Shown: in pieces, positions 1 through 9,881 of the stretch
Layout of the letters: each line of letters begins with the position of its first letter
Numbering within the stretch: position 1 is the stretch's first letter
From: Saksenaea vasiformis B4078
Lineage: Eukaryota > Mucoromycota > Mucoromycetes > Mucorales > Saksenaeaceae
DNA length: 64,000 bases
Assembly: GCA_000697055.1 (NCBI GenBank)
Contig: JNDT01001794.1
Coordinates: forward strand, 1 to 64,000
Direction: 5' to 3'
Notes under the pieces: model-generated
The model's database searches: none
What the model was told of the DNA's origin: nothing
The model's input: only the letters and a program-made list of their open reading frames with translations
Translations under genes and position numbers: made by a program

Positions 1-1433
1 AAGAGGAAGGCAGTCCTGGGTGCGCAACTCTGCGTTGGTTATATCGAGTGAAATTAGATGATTTAAGATCGTGGCCTCTTCCTAGAAATACTGAGCGACA
101 TACAGCCAAAGCGAGTATGGCTTGCCTTCCAAAGTTCGCGCTCAACTGACAACATCACAGCACTTCTGTTGACATCTCACACGGCCCCCTTATCACTGTC
201 ACGCTTCTGTCCTCATCTTTGACGATGATGCCCTTGTTTTATCACTTTTCAATAGAATATGTATCCCATTTCCGACTTAGTTAAAATAGCTATAATTATA
301 TCGAACACAAGAGATAAACGCGAGAAAGTTAACTACAAAATCCCATCTTGACAAAGTATGTCTACGAAACCCGTCTTCTTTTGTCATCCACTTGCTCTTA
401 GCCTTTGATACATGACTCAAAATAAACGTGTCCGTTGCTCACTATCAACCGATTTATCAACCGATTCATTGATAGACAGACTTTCTGCAGTCGACTTATA
501 TTTCAAGTTGTGTGTGTCCTTCATATATCACTCACCAACTCAACAACAGTTTGGTACCATTTCAGAAACCTTCCTTCGTAATTGGGTGTCTCTGGATGAT
601 CCTGAAGCTGATACAATGCAGTGCTACCTGCAGCAGTCAGTCCATGACACATGTTAAAGTCTATCACTTCGGGCTTCCACCGATATGACGCTGTGAATTG
701 CTAGGGATAGTACTCCTTTCCTCTTATATTATACATTCAATTTTCCGGTTCCATCAAATTTTCTCTGCCAACTGCCATCTGGTGCTTGTGAATTATTTAT
801 TTATCTTCAAAAAAAAAAGTTTTGTTCACAGGACAAAGTAGTAACACAAGTCGTGCTAAAAATGGCAGACAAAGGAAAAGAGAAAAAAGACGCATCGGTA
901 TTTTAAAAAATTGTCCTGCCTAAAAAAGATATGCCCGGCAAAGATACCATTCAACTCTGGCTGTTTGAATAAGAAAGATCCTAGGATAGCTATTCAGGCG
1001 TTAACAACAATAGTCGCAAGCTTTTTACAAGTAGAATACATGTTGTTCAGTTGAGTATAATGTTATAATGAAATCTTAAGTTCCACAACATTTTGACTTT
1101 CATTTCCTTTTTGGAATTCATTGTCAAAAGATATCTAACGGGATCATGCCTACAAAGTAGGCAAACGTCCTGCCGTTTCTCTTTCAACTCTTCTTACCTT
1201 TACTTTCTCCAAATCAGTCCTTTGACATATTTTCAGACAACAACTTTCAACAACTACAACTTCATATTTAAACGTTTTAGTGAGTATATTCTGGCGGTAT
1301 GAGTGGGTGATGAAATAACCAAAACGTACAAGGACACATCTGTATTCCGAACTGCTTACTAACCCGTACCGGTTGTGAGTACAATGCCTACAGCTGCTTA
1401 TTATATATATTGATTCCTCTTTTTGCTAGCTTC
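1..1433. other. Intergenic, left edge; no gene recognised
   Basis: AT-rich sequence with only short open frames and no recognisable product. It is the upstream flank of the XPG-Fanzor gene and would hold its promoter and any left end of a mobile element. I could not see a terminal inverted repeat matching the right flank by eye. Confidence 0.5.
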
Positions 1434-2097
1434 ATGGGTCTGAAAGGACTCCATGCGTTTCTGAAGCAATCAGGAGCAACGAGTGTGTGTCATATACCTG
1501 ATCATCTCCGGCAGCAACAGATCAGAATCGTATATATCGATTTTTGGTGCGATTTCTTTTGGCTCCTTCAAGACCACGCGAGAATCAGGCCAGCAACAGG
1601 AACACTACGCTGACGCCGCCAGACGATTCGTTGTTCGTGCAATGAGCGAACAAAATTCTTTTGCCAACGAAAGTGGAATTACCAAGATTTGTCTGGTCTT
1701 CGATGGTGCCCGGTTGCAAGCCAAGACCGCTACCCATGCTGCAAGACAAGCCAAGAGAAATCTAGCTTTTAAGAAGGCACAAAGACTAAGCGGAAGCTTG
1801 AGTCGAATATATGATGTGGCAAAGTGTCGTCTCCGTGATAAATATGCCAGGCAGTGGGTCAGCTTTACACCTGCTATCAAGAATGTGATCATCCAGCAGC
1901 TGGATAATCGCCAAGACACTCGACGTTACACCAGTGATTTTGCTAACGAAGAGTCTACCGTATTCATACACCAGGCTACATTCGAAGCTGATCCAGAAAT
2001 TGTGTATTTATGCAACACTGTTGGAGAAGGTATCCGTCCTGCCATATTGTCCCGAGATGGTGACCTATTTGCCTACCAGGGCGCTCTGGATGTTCCT

Positions 2098-2168
2098 GTA
2101 AGTTGCAAAGCAAATCCACTACTCTCTTTAGCACATATATGCTAATTGATATTGCTTATGCATTCTAG
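2098..2168 (+). other. Intron 1 of the XPG-Fanzor gene
   Basis: GTAAGT donor, GCTAATTG branch site and TCTAG acceptor, 71 nt, phase 0. It separates the SRDGD acidic motif from the exon leading to the CGNDY motif. Together with introns 2295-2349 and 4634-4691 it makes the nuclease and Fanzor parts one continuous reading frame apart from the two frameshifts. Confidence 0.8.
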
Positions 2169-4256
2169 CGAATAACAAAGATGAACTGGCAGCAGCGCTC
2201 TCAGCGATACAATGGACAAGTAGCAACTAAACGGTCCCTTTTGACTGTTTTCATGGGGCTATCAACTGCAATAGCGAACGACCAAGCTATCAATGTAGGT
2301 CCTCGATTGCTACATTTGAAATCGTGTTTACTGATACATTGGATCATAGGCTGAAATCCGTTTTTTCATTTTGGCGGCTACTTGCGGAAACGATTATGCC
2401 AACAACCTGCGCGGCAAATCGTTCAAAAGGGTCAAGGCAGCACTTGAAAAGCTCCAGCCATTTACTCACGCCGACAGCCTCCTACTGGCGTTGATGAATA
2501 ATATTGGCGCTTTTGTGTCAGACTTTCAAATGCACAGATTTAACGTTGCACTCCACCAGTTTTGCCGTCCGTATGTTTCCGGAATCCATTCCCAAGGTCC
2601 ATTTCATTATGGTCGTCTCTCTCTAGAAGGCGCAGACTCACATATTTTGGAAGATCTCGCTCATCCCGCTGTGAGAGCACCTCCACAGCGATCAAACCAG
2701 AATCCTGACTATGGAAGTCGTTACAGGTTGCTCACACCGTCACCCGAGCCTGAACAGGAAGTGATGGAAGAGGAATACTTCGGACATCTTGGCCGTAAAG
2801 ATACGGCCTCTTCTACTAGCAGCGGAACGCAGAGCAGGAGCTCGAAAAAGAGTAGGACTAGACGGGCCGTAGGAGCATCAAAGCGTCAGATACAATTCAT
2901 CAAGGATACTGCAAGCGGTGAAATCAAGGATACTTTCCCAGAAAGAGTTTCTTATACGGATCCCGGCACTGGCAAGCGTGTTTCATTTCATCAAAGTTCC
3001 CGATATACTGCTACGGCTGACGCTGGACTTTATTCCTCTATACTAGCTGCTGCTGTCAATAGAGCAAGGAAAAACAATAGAGACGAAGCTGAAGGAATAG
3101 CTGAGGCATCGCTTATTAACAAGGTTATTGGCAAGATCGTCAACGATATGTCTTATGTTCGTTTTGTCGGCTGTCACATCGACAATATTGCCATACACGA
3201 AGCGTACTACTTCGATAGCAATGTCATGTTGGCATTGTATAATCTGTTCTTCCGAAATGGCAAGCGTGGGGCTCAGGATATATGGAGACATACCCTTTAT
3301 TGCGCAACAAAATATACACCAATGACAGGACGTGGATCAGGCCTTTCAACACGACAGGCAGCCGAAGCAGCTGTCTTTACAACAAACTCGGGCATTTTGG
3401 AGACAAGCGGCTCCCTACGGGAAGGAAATAATAATCAAACAGACCTTTTCAAGGCCTTTGCGACGGATACTGCTTTCTCCTCTCTGACCTCAACGTTAAA
3501 ACATAATCTGGAGCGAAATATTCTCCTGCAGGCAAGAAAAATATGGTATAAGGACTGCCTGACCGAGATGTGCATGGCACCGACTTCGATGTATATGGGT
3601 GAAATGATCACCGAAATTGCAAATGGATGCAGTACCGACTTTCGTCGAAACATTGTTTACAATTTCAAAGATCGTTACTGCGAATATATTCGGTCGCGTC
3701 TCAAGGAATTGGCTCAAGTACCACTTGGATGGCCTGTCCCAAATGAGGCGATATTTGATACATTTATCCAAGATATTGTCAGTTCTGTTCGCCATAGAAT
3801 ACTGCTTTCAGTTCTGCAGGAAGCATCAAGACAAGGGTTTTACTACATTGGTGATGCTACCGTTCGCACTCAAGTCGACAAGTTTATAACGAACATGGTG
3901 CGCCTCTACAAAAACTCCGCGGAGCCATTTGATGAAGCAAAGTGCAGACTTGAGGTCGAAAACAACGCGACTGTACCACCAGGATGGCCGAAAAACAGAA
4001 ATAAGCTTATAGCAGCGTTATTTCAAAGAATCTGGGGAATGCCACTTGACCTAAGCGAAGCTGATGCCGACCCAGGAGATTTTGATGATCCCGAGGAACA
4101 AGAACAAGAAGGTCAAGCATCCGGCAATATACTTACTGGCTTAGGACATGATGTTCAGGAACAGATCGAATCCTTCATTGACATTGAGCGTGGTCTCGAA
4201 GTAAAGGGTATCCGGGTATCTGATGTAAATCTGTTTGAATGTTTTGGTGAGACCGG

Positions 4257-4304
4257 CCCTTCTACTACTGGGAAGCGGAGCCCTTCTACTACTGGGAAGC
4301 GGAG
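4257..4304 (+). repeat. Exact 24-bp in-frame tandem duplication
   Basis: Two perfect adjacent copies (4257-4280 and 4281-4304) of a 24-bp unit encoding PSTTGKRS-type residues, inside the linker ahead of the Fanzor core. The lack of divergence indicates a recent slippage duplication. Confidence 0.9.
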
Positions 4305-6117
4305 AAGAAGCGAGATGGATAAAAACGGCGAAGACAGCGAGGATGATGAGGACGATGTGTTCCATAGAGGTTATAAGGGCAAATTTGCCAAAGCAAAAGG
4401 TGCGAAATTGATCCCGTTCCTGTATCATTTTCTAGAAAGACGTGGTGGAGGTTTTCAGTCTTTCGTGTTGTGCCCACTTCAAGCGCACCATCAGATAGCT
4501 GTCCCTTTTAATATCTCATTTGCAAAAACTTTGCTCAAGAGTATCGAGAATTTGGCTCAACCCATAATCCAGCAAGTAGAGGAGCAACTAGCAAGCGCCC
4601 AAACTGTAGAACAAGCTGCTGCGTTGACCAGAGGTGAGTCGGAACTATTATCATACGTAGTTAGGCAAATTCACTTATATCACAGCTGTAGAGATAAATG
4701 ATCTAAAGAATGCATGCACAAGACTCAAAAACATTGACACCAGCGATCCATTCCACGTCCTTTTCGATATTCGTCAGCAAGCTACAATAAGAAGAGGTGG
4801 CAATGTCGATATCAAAAATCGGGGGTATATGCAATGGTTAGACCAGCGCATACCAGAGAATGACAACAAGCTTCGTTTTTCAAGGCGCAGAGTGTTTCGG
4901 ACAGATGGGATCCGCTTGTATTGTATATACAACGACTGGCTGAGAGGACGGTACGGAAATAGCACTTGCAAGTATTTAACCGAGCTGAGAAGAACTACAA
5001 GAGAAACGTTGAAAGAAATCTGGGAGCCTGACTCATCTGCTGATCAGTCCAATTTTCTTCAGCATTACGATGGTGTCATAGGACTTGATTTTGGAGAGGT
5101 GTGTGCGGCTGCGAGTGTTTTTAAGCCAACGCAACCGGGAGTGGAAAGCTCCCAACTAGTGATCAAGTGCGGTTATCTCTATGAAGGAGCATCCCAAACC
5201 GGGACTGGCTGGAAGCTCGTAAGGACGTCAGTAACATTGGCGGCATTGAAACTGGTTTGAGCGAAGGATCGAGCAGAAGTACCTATAGCAGATATCAAGA
5301 ATACCTCCGAAAACTCAAGGAGAATAACAACGGTCTTCAGCTGTGGAACTTCTACTCGAACCGATCTGTACGGCGAAAAACCTGGGATAATGCTATCTCA
5401 CGAAGATCGTGTCTGGACAAAGCCTGCTATCTAATCCTGAACCAAGCGAATCGTACCTTTACCATGAGTGGGGAATTACATCCTGACCGAGTACGTGGGG
5501 AGTCTCGCCCTCTTGTATACGCTTTTGGCCTAGATGGAACGAGCAAAAGATCAAGAAGAGGAGCCCTAGCACCCATGGATCACAAGATTGCCAACGCACT
5601 GTATCGGAAAATAAAGCAACGTAGTCGCGGTCGTGAAAACAAGAATATTGATATCTGTACAAGAGTTGATGAGTACCAAACCTCGAAAGTATGTTGTTAC
5701 TGTTCTAAGCGAGGCAGCGAGCAGCATGTCAGGTTTCTCCGGCGACCACCCATGGTACCAGTGCAAGATGAAGGTGGCCTTGAAAAGGTGATGAGAGTAG
5801 TCTGTTGTCAGAGTTGTAATCGAGCGTTCCACCGGGATGGCAATGCAGCGGACAACCAGGCGACTATCGCCCAATACATGTTGCAGTTTCAGCAACGTCC
5901 GCGTTGGTTCATCCGGCCGACAAGACGTCAGGAAGAAGGAAGCGAAGAAGAAACCACAGTGACAGCCAGCGAAGTTCAGACCACGGTTGAACCACCCTGG
6001 TCTCAGCAAAGCATTTTTCAACAAGCACAGGAAGCAGAATCGTCACAAGAACCACTAAGACGATCAGCAAGGCTACAACAGAAAAGACAAAAAAGGATCC
6101 ACAAGCCAAGTGGATAG

Positions 6118-6462
6118 GGCTTCCACGCCCGGTACTTGGTAAGCATTATTGAACCTCCTGGGCTGTTTCCTTTCATACTCACCAACCAAATTATTCACGC
6201 GTCTTGCATGAGCTTGGCGAGGGGCTGGGTATTGCGCTGTTGAAGGTCTAAACAGGTTCGTGGATGCGTCAATTCAAACAATTGCAACACGGCAGCTCAC
6301 ATCATCCATTAGCGCCAAGCTTAGCTTCTCAATTCCGCCAAGCAGATTTGCAAGATGCGACTTTATTTTTTGAAAAAACAGTACAAACAGCAATAGTATA
6401 TATACAACAAAAATCTCAGGACGAGATGAACTATGTAAAATGGTATGCACTGAGGCCATATA
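6118..6462. other. Convergent intergenic strip between the Fanzor gene and the MAPKK
   Basis: 345 bp between two facing stop codons. No ORF of its own. In characterised Fanzor/TnpB loci the guide (omega) RNA lies at or beyond the 3' end of the nuclease gene, so this strip is where such an RNA would be expected. I see no decisive structure by eye. Confidence 0.4.
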
Positions 6463-7748
6463 TTAAGCCCAGCCCCAGACTTGTTTTAGCCATGACTCGA
6501 GCTCTGAGGCTGGTACATCATGGGATTTGACAAACGGGTGATCAAGCATCGCCTCAGGCCCTGGTCGTTCTTTGGGGTCCTTGAACAAACTAAGATAACA
6601 AAATGAATTCGTGACAACATAATATCTTCAAACTGTTTACCATTTTGCAACAAAATCTCTGCATTCTCTTGATCTATCTTCCCCCAAGTTTGGCAGAGGT
6701 TGTTTGACAATGAATTCCAATAATTCAAACACAGCCATTGGAGGATGGCCAGGAGGTGGAAGAACAGGTCGATTCTGCGCTATCTCAATAATGGAGAGTC
6801 CAAGCGACCATATGTCGGATTGTACAGAGTAGGGTGCGCCTTGAATTCGTTCGGGCTACGTTTTTCTCTGTTATGGATATCAAATAAAAAAAATGCATAT
6901 ATACCTACCGCCATGTAGTACTGTGTTCCTGTGAATGTTTCTGCGATGGAATTAATCAGTTCACCTGAAACGCCTAGATCACATAGCTTGATTTCGCCTT
7001 TGCGCGTCATTAGAATGTTGGATGGTTTGACATCTCGATGGATCACGTGTTGTAGGCGGAGGTAACTTAATCCTTTGCATACCTATATAATCAATGAGAA
7101 AAAAAACATGTCAAATGCTTGGCTAAAAATCTACTTGCCGATTCTGCAATTTTGGCTAAAACAGGTTCACCAATGACGCCGCCCATTTCTCGGGCTCGCT
7201 TGTAGATGTCTTCAAGGCTGCCACCTTCGCAGTACTCCATACAAATGGCTACTGTTCTACCGCCGTCGTCTAAAAATGCCCCATGATAGGCAACAATATG
7301 AGGTGATCGGCACGTTTTTAAAGTGGACAGTTCTCGCAGTATCTGTCGTTGAAGTTTAGGCTCGGCTTCGATGGTGATTGTCTAGTTGAGCGGATTAGTC
7401 ATGGCCACCTTCTTTTTTGTTTGTTTGTTAAACCTTTTTCGCCATGATTTTTCCTGTGGGCTTGTAGCGAACCTTCCACACTGCACCGGCTGCACCTTCA
7501 CCTAGTTTTTGGAGATTTTCAAAGTCCTCCGGTTTCAGGTCGACATAGTCGCCTTCTTCACCGTTGTCTGTCTCCGGCTCAGACAAAAAGCTTTGTGATC
7601 GGTTCTGACTAACAATACGTTCAAGATTCTCGCGCCAGTCAGGGTCGCATGGGGAAGACGAAGACACGTTGCTGCTGTCAGTAGGTAGTAACGCGGGGCT
7701 CACGTCGAGTTTCAAACCAGGATTCTTTGGTCTGCTGATCTGTGCCAT
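6463..7748 (-). CDS. MAP kinase kinase (MAP2K, STE7/MKK family)
   Basis: Dual-specificity kinase that phosphorylates a MAP kinase. Reading from 7748 down: a ~70-residue N-terminal tail, glycine loop [12 protein letters not shown] lysine, HRDVKPSN catalytic loop, a DLG in place of the usual DFG, activation segment [14 protein letters not shown] with the S-x-A-x-T phospho-site spacing, and MAPERIQG spliced across an intron. The last exon ends in WGWA and a stop at 6463. It has at least five exons; the intron after the AES codons uses a GC donor (GCAAGT, ~7136). GVSGELINS and APERIQG are MAP2K signatures. Which cascade it serves (mating, cell wall or stress) cannot be read from the sequence. Its 3' end faces the Fanzor gene. 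Confidence 0.9.
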
Positions 7749-9881
7749 GATAAGAACTAAAGAAGAGAAAAAGGAAAAGGGAAAAAAAGAAGAAAAGAGA
7801 GAGGATAATCGGATGGTCGTTTTTAAGTTGCAGTCGACTCGAGTTAAAAAGGGAAACAGAACGAACGGATCCTGGAAAGGATAACGAACGCACTTTAAAC
7901 CTCCGCTCCTAGTGATGATGATTAGGCACCCGCTCAGGTGGTCATATCCTCACTACATGTTCATGTGGGATCCGTGGCCCGAACGTGCCTTTCAATGGAA
8001 AGATCGGACAAAAGGACAGAATTGGCGTTGCTTCATTATTAATATTTTACTGCCATCAATTGCACATTGAGCCCGTTACTCAGGAGCAAGTCGAAAATGA
8101 GCACACGTTGAGTCGGAGCGGGAAAGCGAACACTGACTTGTGCAACAGCTAAAAATGGCTAATTCGCCATAGATAAACTGGCCATTTTGAAACTCTAGCA
8201 CAATGTACGTCTGTCAGCATCTGTCACAGACCACTGAGACATGATAAAACAAAACGAATTGCCTGTACAATATTGGCACTGGTAATGATCACGTAAGGTG
8301 ATGGAGGTAAAACTTGAAAGGATAACATGACTATGAAGTACCTATCCCGCTTGCATGAATTCCATTAATAGATTGTTATCCGCTTTAAATTTATTTTAGA
8401 TACCTAGGTACTCGTTACAGATCAAACTACAACGAGGTTCCATGAAGTCAATATATGCGGATGAAATGTTTTGTGAGAAAGCGCGTCCATAAGTGATATC
8501 CATTTTAAGTAGCATTCATTGATTTCCCGCGTGTTACACCTGATCTAAAAACGTACTTCGGTATAGAGTCACTGAAGAAAAAAGCATTATGTGATTCGAA
8601 GGAACGTACGGCGTAAAGTATGAAAATGAACAAACGGCTATCCATAGTTACCGTTTATCGAAATATGTTTTACGCTTGTTTTAAATAAGTGATGCCTCTA
8701 GGAAGGACCAATTCTGTGTTGAAAAATAGATATAGGTCCTTGGCATTCCAATTATGGTAGAAGTTCGTATGTCACTTGCGTGAACAAGGTCCTCGCGTGG
8801 GTATAAATTTTATTGGAACAGTGTAAAGATATAACTGATGGTCAACATATAAAATGACAGTGGATGCGAACAAAAGTCGAATACGGAGTCCAGGAAAAGG
8901 ACATCTGGCACAATAAAGGTCCCCCGATCGTCCATTCACTGTCATACAAAGAATGATCTGTGTCCAGGGGTTTGTGAACTGCGAAAGAACTAAAATGGTA
9001 ATAGCCGACTACATTGGTTGCATCGCTTCTTAGTGCTTGATTGTACTTCGACCCCATGTCTAGCAAGTTCGCATTGCTTGTGATATACGCCATCGCTCTC
9101 AGTGGCAGACGCTTGCTGTAACCATCGACGTTAACACCAATTAATGAAAATCACGATTTGGTCAGAGATATTAAAGCATATGGGCGACAATCTATGATTT
9201 CTAAGGTTTAGATGGTCCCGCGTTAAAATATTGACTTCCCACCATTTGTCAAATACCTTTCTTTTTTTTTTGGGAGATACTTTATGCATATTACCCTCGG
9301 GATTTATGAATTAATGCCTGAACATATGAGTATTGTGGAATATATAACCTTTGTATTTCTTTCATTTACCAAATTGTTTTGCCATACATTGAATTGATAG
9401 AAATGATCGACATGTTAGATAATTGAGAATGAACAAATACAGAAAATTGCATCCTTCTTTCGATACCCATTACATACAGACATACAAAGCATTTTCTGTG
9501 GAAGTTAGTGGAACCAAAATCTGGCGCGAACGAGCAAGTGCGAAAAAAGTGGATTGTGCCGACAGAAGCGTTAGTTCAACGTAAATAAGTACGACTTTCG
9601 CAGCGCAATATTCTTTTGGGGATACCCCAACTTGTCTTGAACCAGCACAAAGTCCACAAGTGAAATACAGTGAATTCAACCTAGACATTATTTTGTTTAA
9701 TGTCTATTCAGTCGCCATTACTGAAGTGCTTCTTGGATCTTCTTTTAGGTTCTTGCCAAAATTGGAAATTAGTAAAAGCCCGCCGCATGGATGATGCCGT
9801 GCCGGGATGTTCGGACCGCCGGTTGTCACGGACAGCTCCCCATGGAGAGGTGTGCTTCCTCCTTTTTCTTTGCACTGAAAG
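7749..9881. other. Long intergenic region; no supported gene
   Basis: 2.1 kb between the divergent MAPKK and eL37 starts. The first ~200 bp, rich in GA/CT next to the MAPKK start, are probably its promoter and leader. A minus-strand open frame at 8842-9093 is not recognisable. No tRNA B-box was seen. The last ~150 bp, ending in a pyrimidine-rich stretch, lead into the eL37 start. Confidence 0.5.

Follow-up and report, generated by a model that had tools for sequence, protein, structure and literature searches.

A mobile element of Saksenaea vasiformis with a gene predicted to join an EXO1-like nuclease to a Fanzor-like protein

The gene and its nuclease parts

The first 64,000 nucleotides of one contig (JNDT01001794.1) in the 38.7-Mb, 666-contig genome of the Mucorales fungus Saksenaea vasiformis B4078, hereafter the window, begin inside a mobile element with a gene (positions 1434 to 6117) for an XPG/EXO1-family nuclease, a long middle region, and a Fanzor-like RuvC domain and zinc ribbon. 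The XPG/EXO1-like module starts in exon 1 (1434 to 2097, forward strand, as is the whole gene) with the motifs MGLKGL, IDF, FDG, AK..R, FEAD and SRDGD; it continues in exon 2 (2169 to 2294), where the spliced frame is consistent with that of a related protein of Apophysomyces ossiformis (P0001), and its last motif, CGNDY, is encoded with the middle region in exon 3 (2350 to 4633). Exon 4 (4692 to 6117) encodes the TDG motif of WED, the RuvC-I motif GLDFGE, DEYQTS with its alternative glutamate, two CxxC motifs and HRDGNAADN. Judged by eye from the spliced codons against P0001, the exons join in phase across the three introns (2098 to 2168, 2295 to 2349 and 4634 to 4691), and a 783-codon open frame (2350 to 4701) holds both CGNDY and the whole middle region.

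The acidic XPG motifs, the RuvC-I motif GLDFG, the zinc ribbon and HRDGNAADN, all reported in an initial annotation of the window, are present as claimed. The single gene model joined by phase-consistent introns that it also proposed agrees with the three introns but not with two deletions, one of 32 nucleotides near 1571 (exon 1, N-region of the XPG part) and one of a single nucleotide near 5182 (exon 4, RuvC), identified by comparison with four near-identical copies. Because both deletions shift the frame, the model is not valid for the window copy; a single clean gene model is right for the family instead. Alignment with the four copies ruled out the reading of these two deletions as introns. 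The middle region is mostly helical in a structure model of middle and RuvC (predicted local distance difference test, pLDDT, 47; low confidence, used for helix content alone), and probably supplies REC and WED parts.

Comparison of a five-row profile of the XPG part (one source per row) with the PDB placed human EXO1 first (E 1.5e-9, residues 1-238), followed by RAD2 (0.01), XPG (0.33) and FEN1 (0.68). With a seven-row profile, EXO1 was matched at E 2.2e-12 and XPG, RAD2 and FEN1 at 0.011-0.029, the alignment ending at residue 238-241 across profiles; two of these seven rows mix pieces of two close copies, and the search as repeated with cleaner inputs kept EXO1 first, at an E-value weaker than that of the seven-row profile. 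The acidic active-site residues are conserved, and two basic arch residues, which we take to be K85 and R92 of EXO1, align without gaps. At E up to 1, each of the seven members has a Pfam XPG_I match (best 2.8e-5) and three have an XPG_N match (best 0.013); the genome holds five further XPG_I loci above cut-off. A structure model of the XPG part (pLDDT 51, low confidence, in supporting use alone) returned EXO1 in rows 1-14 of a fold search, with XRN1 as a weak match. Chance is an unlikely source of these matches: the EXO1 match reaches E 1.5e-9 and the Fanzor end of the window gene matches PF07282 at E 2.2e-6. By these profile comparisons no solved structure comes nearer than EXO1, which leads RAD2, XPG and FEN1 by a wide margin. 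The designation "flap endonuclease/FEN1" in the initial annotation was too specific, the best solved relative being EXO1, a 5' exo/flap nuclease. Up to E 1, none of the Fanzor chains in the PDB, SpuFz1 among them, is hit by the XPG profiles.

The PF07282 match of the window Fanzor piece lies above the curated cut-off. A C-terminal profile retrieved SpuFz1 from the PDB (E 8.1e-5); Parasitella Fz1 was a weak match (0.4), and the ranks between the two were taken by the LaTranC nuclease and a pair of designed proteins; NCBIfam and PHROGs yielded nothing beyond weak TnpB and transposase matches. As given in the available text of Yoon 2023 (PMC10711439), the Fanzor fingerprint comprises an alternative RuvC-II glutamate (Ealt) that precedes the zinc finger by six residues, DPG at RuvC-I, and TDG, which denotes Fanzor1. 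Ealt (DEYxTSxxC) is present in the window, in a Lichtheimia hyalospora gene model (P0002) and in six divergent loci of the Saksenaea genome (L020, L022, L023, L024, L025 and L027); P0001 stops short of the site, and L021 is interrupted by a stop there. TDG occurs in the window, P0001, L020, L022, L024 and L025, and its place is taken by TNG (P0002), TDS (L023), MDG (L027) and KDG (L021, where the frame breaks). The RuvC-I motif reads DFV in L023 and DLG in L027. The Fanzor1 pattern of Bao and Jurka 2013, D-X(125,275)-[TS][TS]xx-C4-X(5,50)-RD, was tried on five sequences: L022 and L024 match in one frame from the GLDLGE/GLDFGE aspartate, and the window and L020 pieces fit but begin past the RuvC-I aspartate. 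Thus, the name Fanzor in the initial annotation is borne out by Ealt and mostly by TDG but not by the DPG fingerprint, and because DPG is absent the protein is termed Fanzor-like and not a typical Fanzor.

The element and its right end

The 3' part of the element occupies positions 1 to 6384 of the window (forward strand), its left end lying beyond the contig start; near-identical copies end at 6384/6385 and unrelated flanks follow. The element is multicopy and about 7.5 kb in full length (7.5-7.6 kb in the two-ended copies C428 and C232). The four near-identical copies (L009, L010, L011 and L012) share 95.5-96.6% identity with the window, L009, L010 and L012 matching from position 1 and L011 from 647 (its own contig edge), all to 6384/6385, and the last 276 bases of the element find 20 matches in the genome. 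Left ends, read in other copies, start ATACAGTATTTCC or a near variant, and most right ends of the window family close with CAGTAC. Inspection by eye showed short inverted ends but no target-site duplication in the three two-ended copies of the window family (C428, C232 and C395), and a mariner-type TA duplication is unsupported, conservation extending beyond the TA. No transposase was recognised in the translated 2.6 kb upstream of the gene in L009 and L012 (longest printed frame, 136 aa), the frames of which were not scanned against families. About 100 bases past the right end of the element lies the 3' end of a minus-strand protein-kinase gene (approximately 6486 to 7950), by eye like a MAP-kinase kinase.

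The right end of the element is formed by a conserved non-coding block (6100 to 6384, forward strand) that is a candidate guide-RNA scaffold (omega/fRNA), as judged from identity, absence of coding bias, fold and covariation. Measured over 50 bases at a time, the block (approximately 6100-6384) is 82-96% identical to C666 and, until similarity stops at about 6300, 82-92% identical to C391, compared with about 70% in coding DNA in both cases. Every reading frame of the block contains stops and codon-position bias is lacking, by which a coding explanation is ruled out. Its fold has a z-score of -2.85, with one of 200 shuffles as good. Among six sequences (two of them near-identical), a consensus structure pairs 91.9% of cells (0/500 shuffles; slid controls, 36-45%) and has 9 pairs with compensatory change (1/500 shuffles), these figures being favoured by the derivation of the structure from the same sequences on which it was scored. 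The corresponding region of a divergent second subfamily in the same genome opens with the same two hairpins, located in the window at 6097-6102/6110-6115 and 6117-6120/6127-6130 (forward strand), the first of them within the coding end and touching the stop codon. Across nine sequences of both subfamilies, 94.3% of the cells of the two hairpins are paired (0/500 shuffles) and 7 cells are compensatory (0/500 shuffles), all in hairpin 1; pairs with compensatory change (3; 45/500) and further pair types (490/500) are unremarkable against shuffles. By eye, GTACT (6132-6136) can pair with AGTAC (6380-6384), as can AGGTGC with GCACCT in the second subfamily. Rfam at gathering scores has no match in the window.

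According to the available parts of two published studies, Fanzor guide RNAs are derived from the 3' end of their locus, where they may extend over the end of the coding sequence (PMC10432273), and terminal repeats may form part of the guide scaffold (PMC10711439). The candidate right-end RNA is situated where these published guide RNAs lie. The elements appear to encode a guide-RNA scaffold at the right end that starts in the coding end and would take its guide from flanking DNA.

Related loci, selection and carrier elements

Ten divergent loci (L018-L027) were compared with the window gene, and six of them (L020, L021, L022, L023, L025 and L027) have co-linear XPG, middle and Fanzor pieces; L024 consists of middle and Fanzor parts, and L018, L019 and L026 have fewer parts. 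L020-L027 are 24-51% identical, by piece, to the protein of the window gene, and the second subfamily keeps the order of XPG, middle and Fanzor. A search of the genome for the XPG module (E up to 0.01) gave 71 rows on 28 contigs; the linkage count drew a single XPG row from each contig and 40 rows chosen from the 97 for Fanzor, and 17 contigs have a same-strand Fanzor match downstream within 8 kb, while 3 stop at the contig edge. XPG-module matches without a detected Fanzor part downstream are on C265, C380, C542, C551, C562, C451, C88 and C248, and could represent copies in decay, modules that stand alone or another subfamily. PF07282 (the Fanzor/TnpB zinc ribbon) has 137 matches at E 0.001 or better in the whole genome, far more than the 28 XPG-module contigs, and the genome may therefore be called Fanzor-rich.

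Scoring of 7,993 candidates from the protein database yielded two relatives, and a query with P0002 led back to this pair. P0001, from Apophysomyces ossiformis (1,036 aa, 54% identical), begins inside the XPG part and stops inside RuvC and is thus incomplete at both ends; P0002, the Lichtheimia hyalospora gene model K492DRAFT_200548 (1,416 aa, 34% identical over 96% of the query), starts with MGIKGL and ends beyond HRDGNAAEN, with the whole layout in one chain. In a search with the C-terminus of the second subfamily, not one of 4,091 candidates reached E 0.001; it missed P0002 too, and so says little about the spread of the family. Family profiles A1 (XPG) and A2 found no relatives in viral contigs, nor did A2 in prokaryote genomes. 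The fusion claimed in the initial annotation is upheld by the six loci and the two gene models, and comparison of the predicted proteins supports an XPG-family nuclease fused to a Fanzor-type protein in a mobile element of this genome, and in gene models of Apophysomyces and Lichtheimia as well.

Ratios of nonsynonymous to synonymous substitution (dN/dS) in the second subfamily are 0.17 and 0.20 for the XPG part and 0.18 and 0.18 for the middle region (L020 versus L021 and L025), and 0.18, 0.21 and 0.19 for the Fanzor part (L022 versus L021, L025 and L027), with bootstrap upper bounds all 0.31 or less. All three parts are under purifying selection in this subfamily. Comparisons in the window family are mostly saturated at synonymous sites: the window and C666 give dN/dS of 0.12 (middle) and 0.11 (Fanzor) at a synonymous divergence (dS) of about 2.7, and one middle-region pair with C391 gives 0.46; the comparisons of the window with C666, C391 and L024 cover no XPG part. 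In the L020 pairs, dS is 0.45-0.47 for the XPG part but reaches 1.1 in the middle, which points to a mosaic history. Identity between L020 and L021 is 79% over the N-terminal half and 66% in the C-terminal part, and L021 and L022 have the reverse pattern (63-65%, then 76%); since the pattern flips among these three loci, parts of the fusion seem to have been exchanged by recombination.

In the two copies of the second subfamily that were inspected by eye, the element is flanked on both sides by GTTGTACAA (L022) or CGAGAAAGA (L027), 9-bp duplications as in Mutator-like elements (MULEs). A MULE transposase domain upstream in L020 has E 5.6e-4, below cut-off. Frames related to those upstream in L020 also precede the gene in L023, where only the first part is represented, and in L021, where they are inverted. 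At L022:2081 and L027:1632, upstream of the XPG-Fanzor gene and seemingly inside the same MULE-type element, lies the remnant of a second zinc finger of Fanzor type (NVDEYNTSQVCSRCGE).

Proposed working, alternatives and known systems

There is high confidence that the gene encodes one long protein consisting of an XPG 5' nuclease close to EXO1, the middle region, and a Fanzor-like RuvC domain with zinc ribbon. EXO1 acts in DNA end resection, and XPG-family enzymes, EXO1 included, also cut 5' flaps. In the working proposed here as the most likely, the right-end RNA would guide the RuvC part to flank-matching DNA at sites devoid of the element; the RuvC part would cut these element-free sites, the tethered EXO1-like domain would resect the 5' ends of the cut, and resection would favour homologous repair from an element-bearing copy, so that the element would be spread or restored. 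The comparisons establish the fusion, the conservation of its catalytic residues, purifying selection on all three parts in the second subfamily, a conserved RNA structure and multicopy elements with defined ends. The best explanation as a whole, in which RNA-guided cutting and EXO1-like resection lead to copying of the element by repair, is considered evenly poised between right and wrong, and a resection role for the tethered domain, taken by itself, falls just short of that balance. More tentatively, two propositions are put forward jointly: the protein may be a natural cut-and-resect homing enzyme that commits its own breaks to homologous repair, by which the transposon would be copied into element-free alleles, and the family may be a lineage beside typical Fanzors that has kept Ealt and TDG, with F or L after the RuvC-I aspartate.

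Several observations weigh against the proposed anatomy and working. All five near-complete copies of the window family that were compared, the window included, carry frameshifting indels. The XPG part of P0002 alone finds EXO1 first in the PDB but at E 0.0025; XPG_N and XPG_I scores are under the Pfam cut-offs wherever printed (the best member's score is not among them); and both structure models (pLDDT 51 and 47) are low in confidence. P0002 scores 22.7 bits against PF07282, below cut-off, and does not fit the strict Fanzor1 pattern, its second CxxC being lost, and at all nine RuvC-I sites compared for the DPG fingerprint (window, P0001, P0002 and L020-L025) the aspartate is followed by F or L. 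Eight of the 28 XPG-module contigs have no detected Fanzor part. In C628 and C441 conservation of the right-end block barely exceeds that of the coding part, and some of the right-end conservation may serve a transposase instead.

The XPG domain could alternatively be a flap or structure-specific nuclease that acts on the R-loop or on transposition intermediates, the idea put forward in the initial annotation, and not on broken ends, as would fit the lower-ranking FEN1, RAD2 and XPG matches of the same searches, the EXO1-flap complexes among the fold-search titles and the MULE-type appearance, with 9-bp duplications, of some carrier elements. This is unlikely, though of appreciable weight: EXO1 is clearly the closest solved relative, and because neither a duplication (by eye) nor, in two copies, a transposase was seen in the window family, no known intermediate there calls for a flap nuclease.

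That the right-end block is a long transposase-binding end and not a guide RNA is suggested by its stopping exactly at the element end and by its inclusion, by eye, of the inverted repeat in MULE-type copies; the compensatory base-pair changes within the block and across subfamilies, the overlap with the coding end and the adjoining Fanzor-like gene make it rather improbable. Still less probable is a role of the XPG domain in guide-RNA maturation, by trimming of the scaffold 5' end that overlaps the mRNA 3' end. The candidate RNA starts inside the coding end and would therefore need processing, and XRN1 appeared weakly in the fold search, but the nearest relatives are DNA nucleases, and SpuFz1, which has no XPG-profile match, was purified from yeast with its guide RNA according to the available part of the report (PMC10432273). 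As for two adjacent genes within a single element, or a host nuclease captured and carried as a passenger with no role for the Fanzor, the broken window-family copies and the XPG-module contigs lacking a detected Fanzor part leave the idea very little probability against the equal purifying selection and the retention of XPG in both subfamilies, and the two-gene model itself is rejected in view of the open frame shared by XPG end and middle, intron 3 in phase with P0001, and the Apophysomyces and Lichtheimia gene models that continue from XPG into RuvC.

A conserved second nuclease of end-resection type, retained as part of the fusion by both subfamilies and by the gene models from two Mucorales, is a clue to the biological role of Fanzors: events after the cut may matter to the element. 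The fusion would also serve as a natural example of how to couple a programmable cutter with a nuclease that steers repair, with the Lichtheimia protein as a candidate. No description of a Fanzor coupled with XPG, and no match for Fanzor with Mucoromycota, was found by text search of 5.39 million open-access papers (subscription papers and most preprints being outside its scope), within which the statement of the initial annotation that no Fanzor with such a partner has been described stands. The word "exonuclease" is absent from the available main text of Saito 2023, Yoon 2023 and Xu 2024, as is "flap" from that of Saito 2023.

The fusion resembles Fanzor1 proteins (SpuFz1, GtFz1 and PpFz1) in its C-terminal RuvC and zinc ribbon, Ealt, TDG in most members, a predicted structured RNA at the right end and mobile carriers, and differs from them in the added N-terminal EXO1-like nuclease, the long middle region, and an F or L after the RuvC-I aspartate where Fanzors have DPG. 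Fanzor1 has been described by Bao and Jurka (PMC3627910) in MuDr-type elements of Rhizopus, Phycomyces and Mucor; compared by description only, these are likewise elements of Mucorales, of MULE type and with 9-bp duplications such as those seen by eye at L022 and L027, although no XPG domain is mentioned in the available text. Parasitella parasitica Fz1 (PMC11423790) is likewise a Mucorales Fanzor1 with an accessory domain, FRI, but this is, as far as the available part of that paper describes it, a small RuvC insertion that binds cyclophilin, in contrast to the N-terminal nuclease reported here. From EXO1 and the XPG/FEN1 family, with which the active-site carboxylates and the two basic arch residues align, the module of Saksenaea vasiformis differs in its printed XPG Pfam scores, which are below cut-off, and in its predicted fusion to an RNA-guided-type nuclease in a mobile element.

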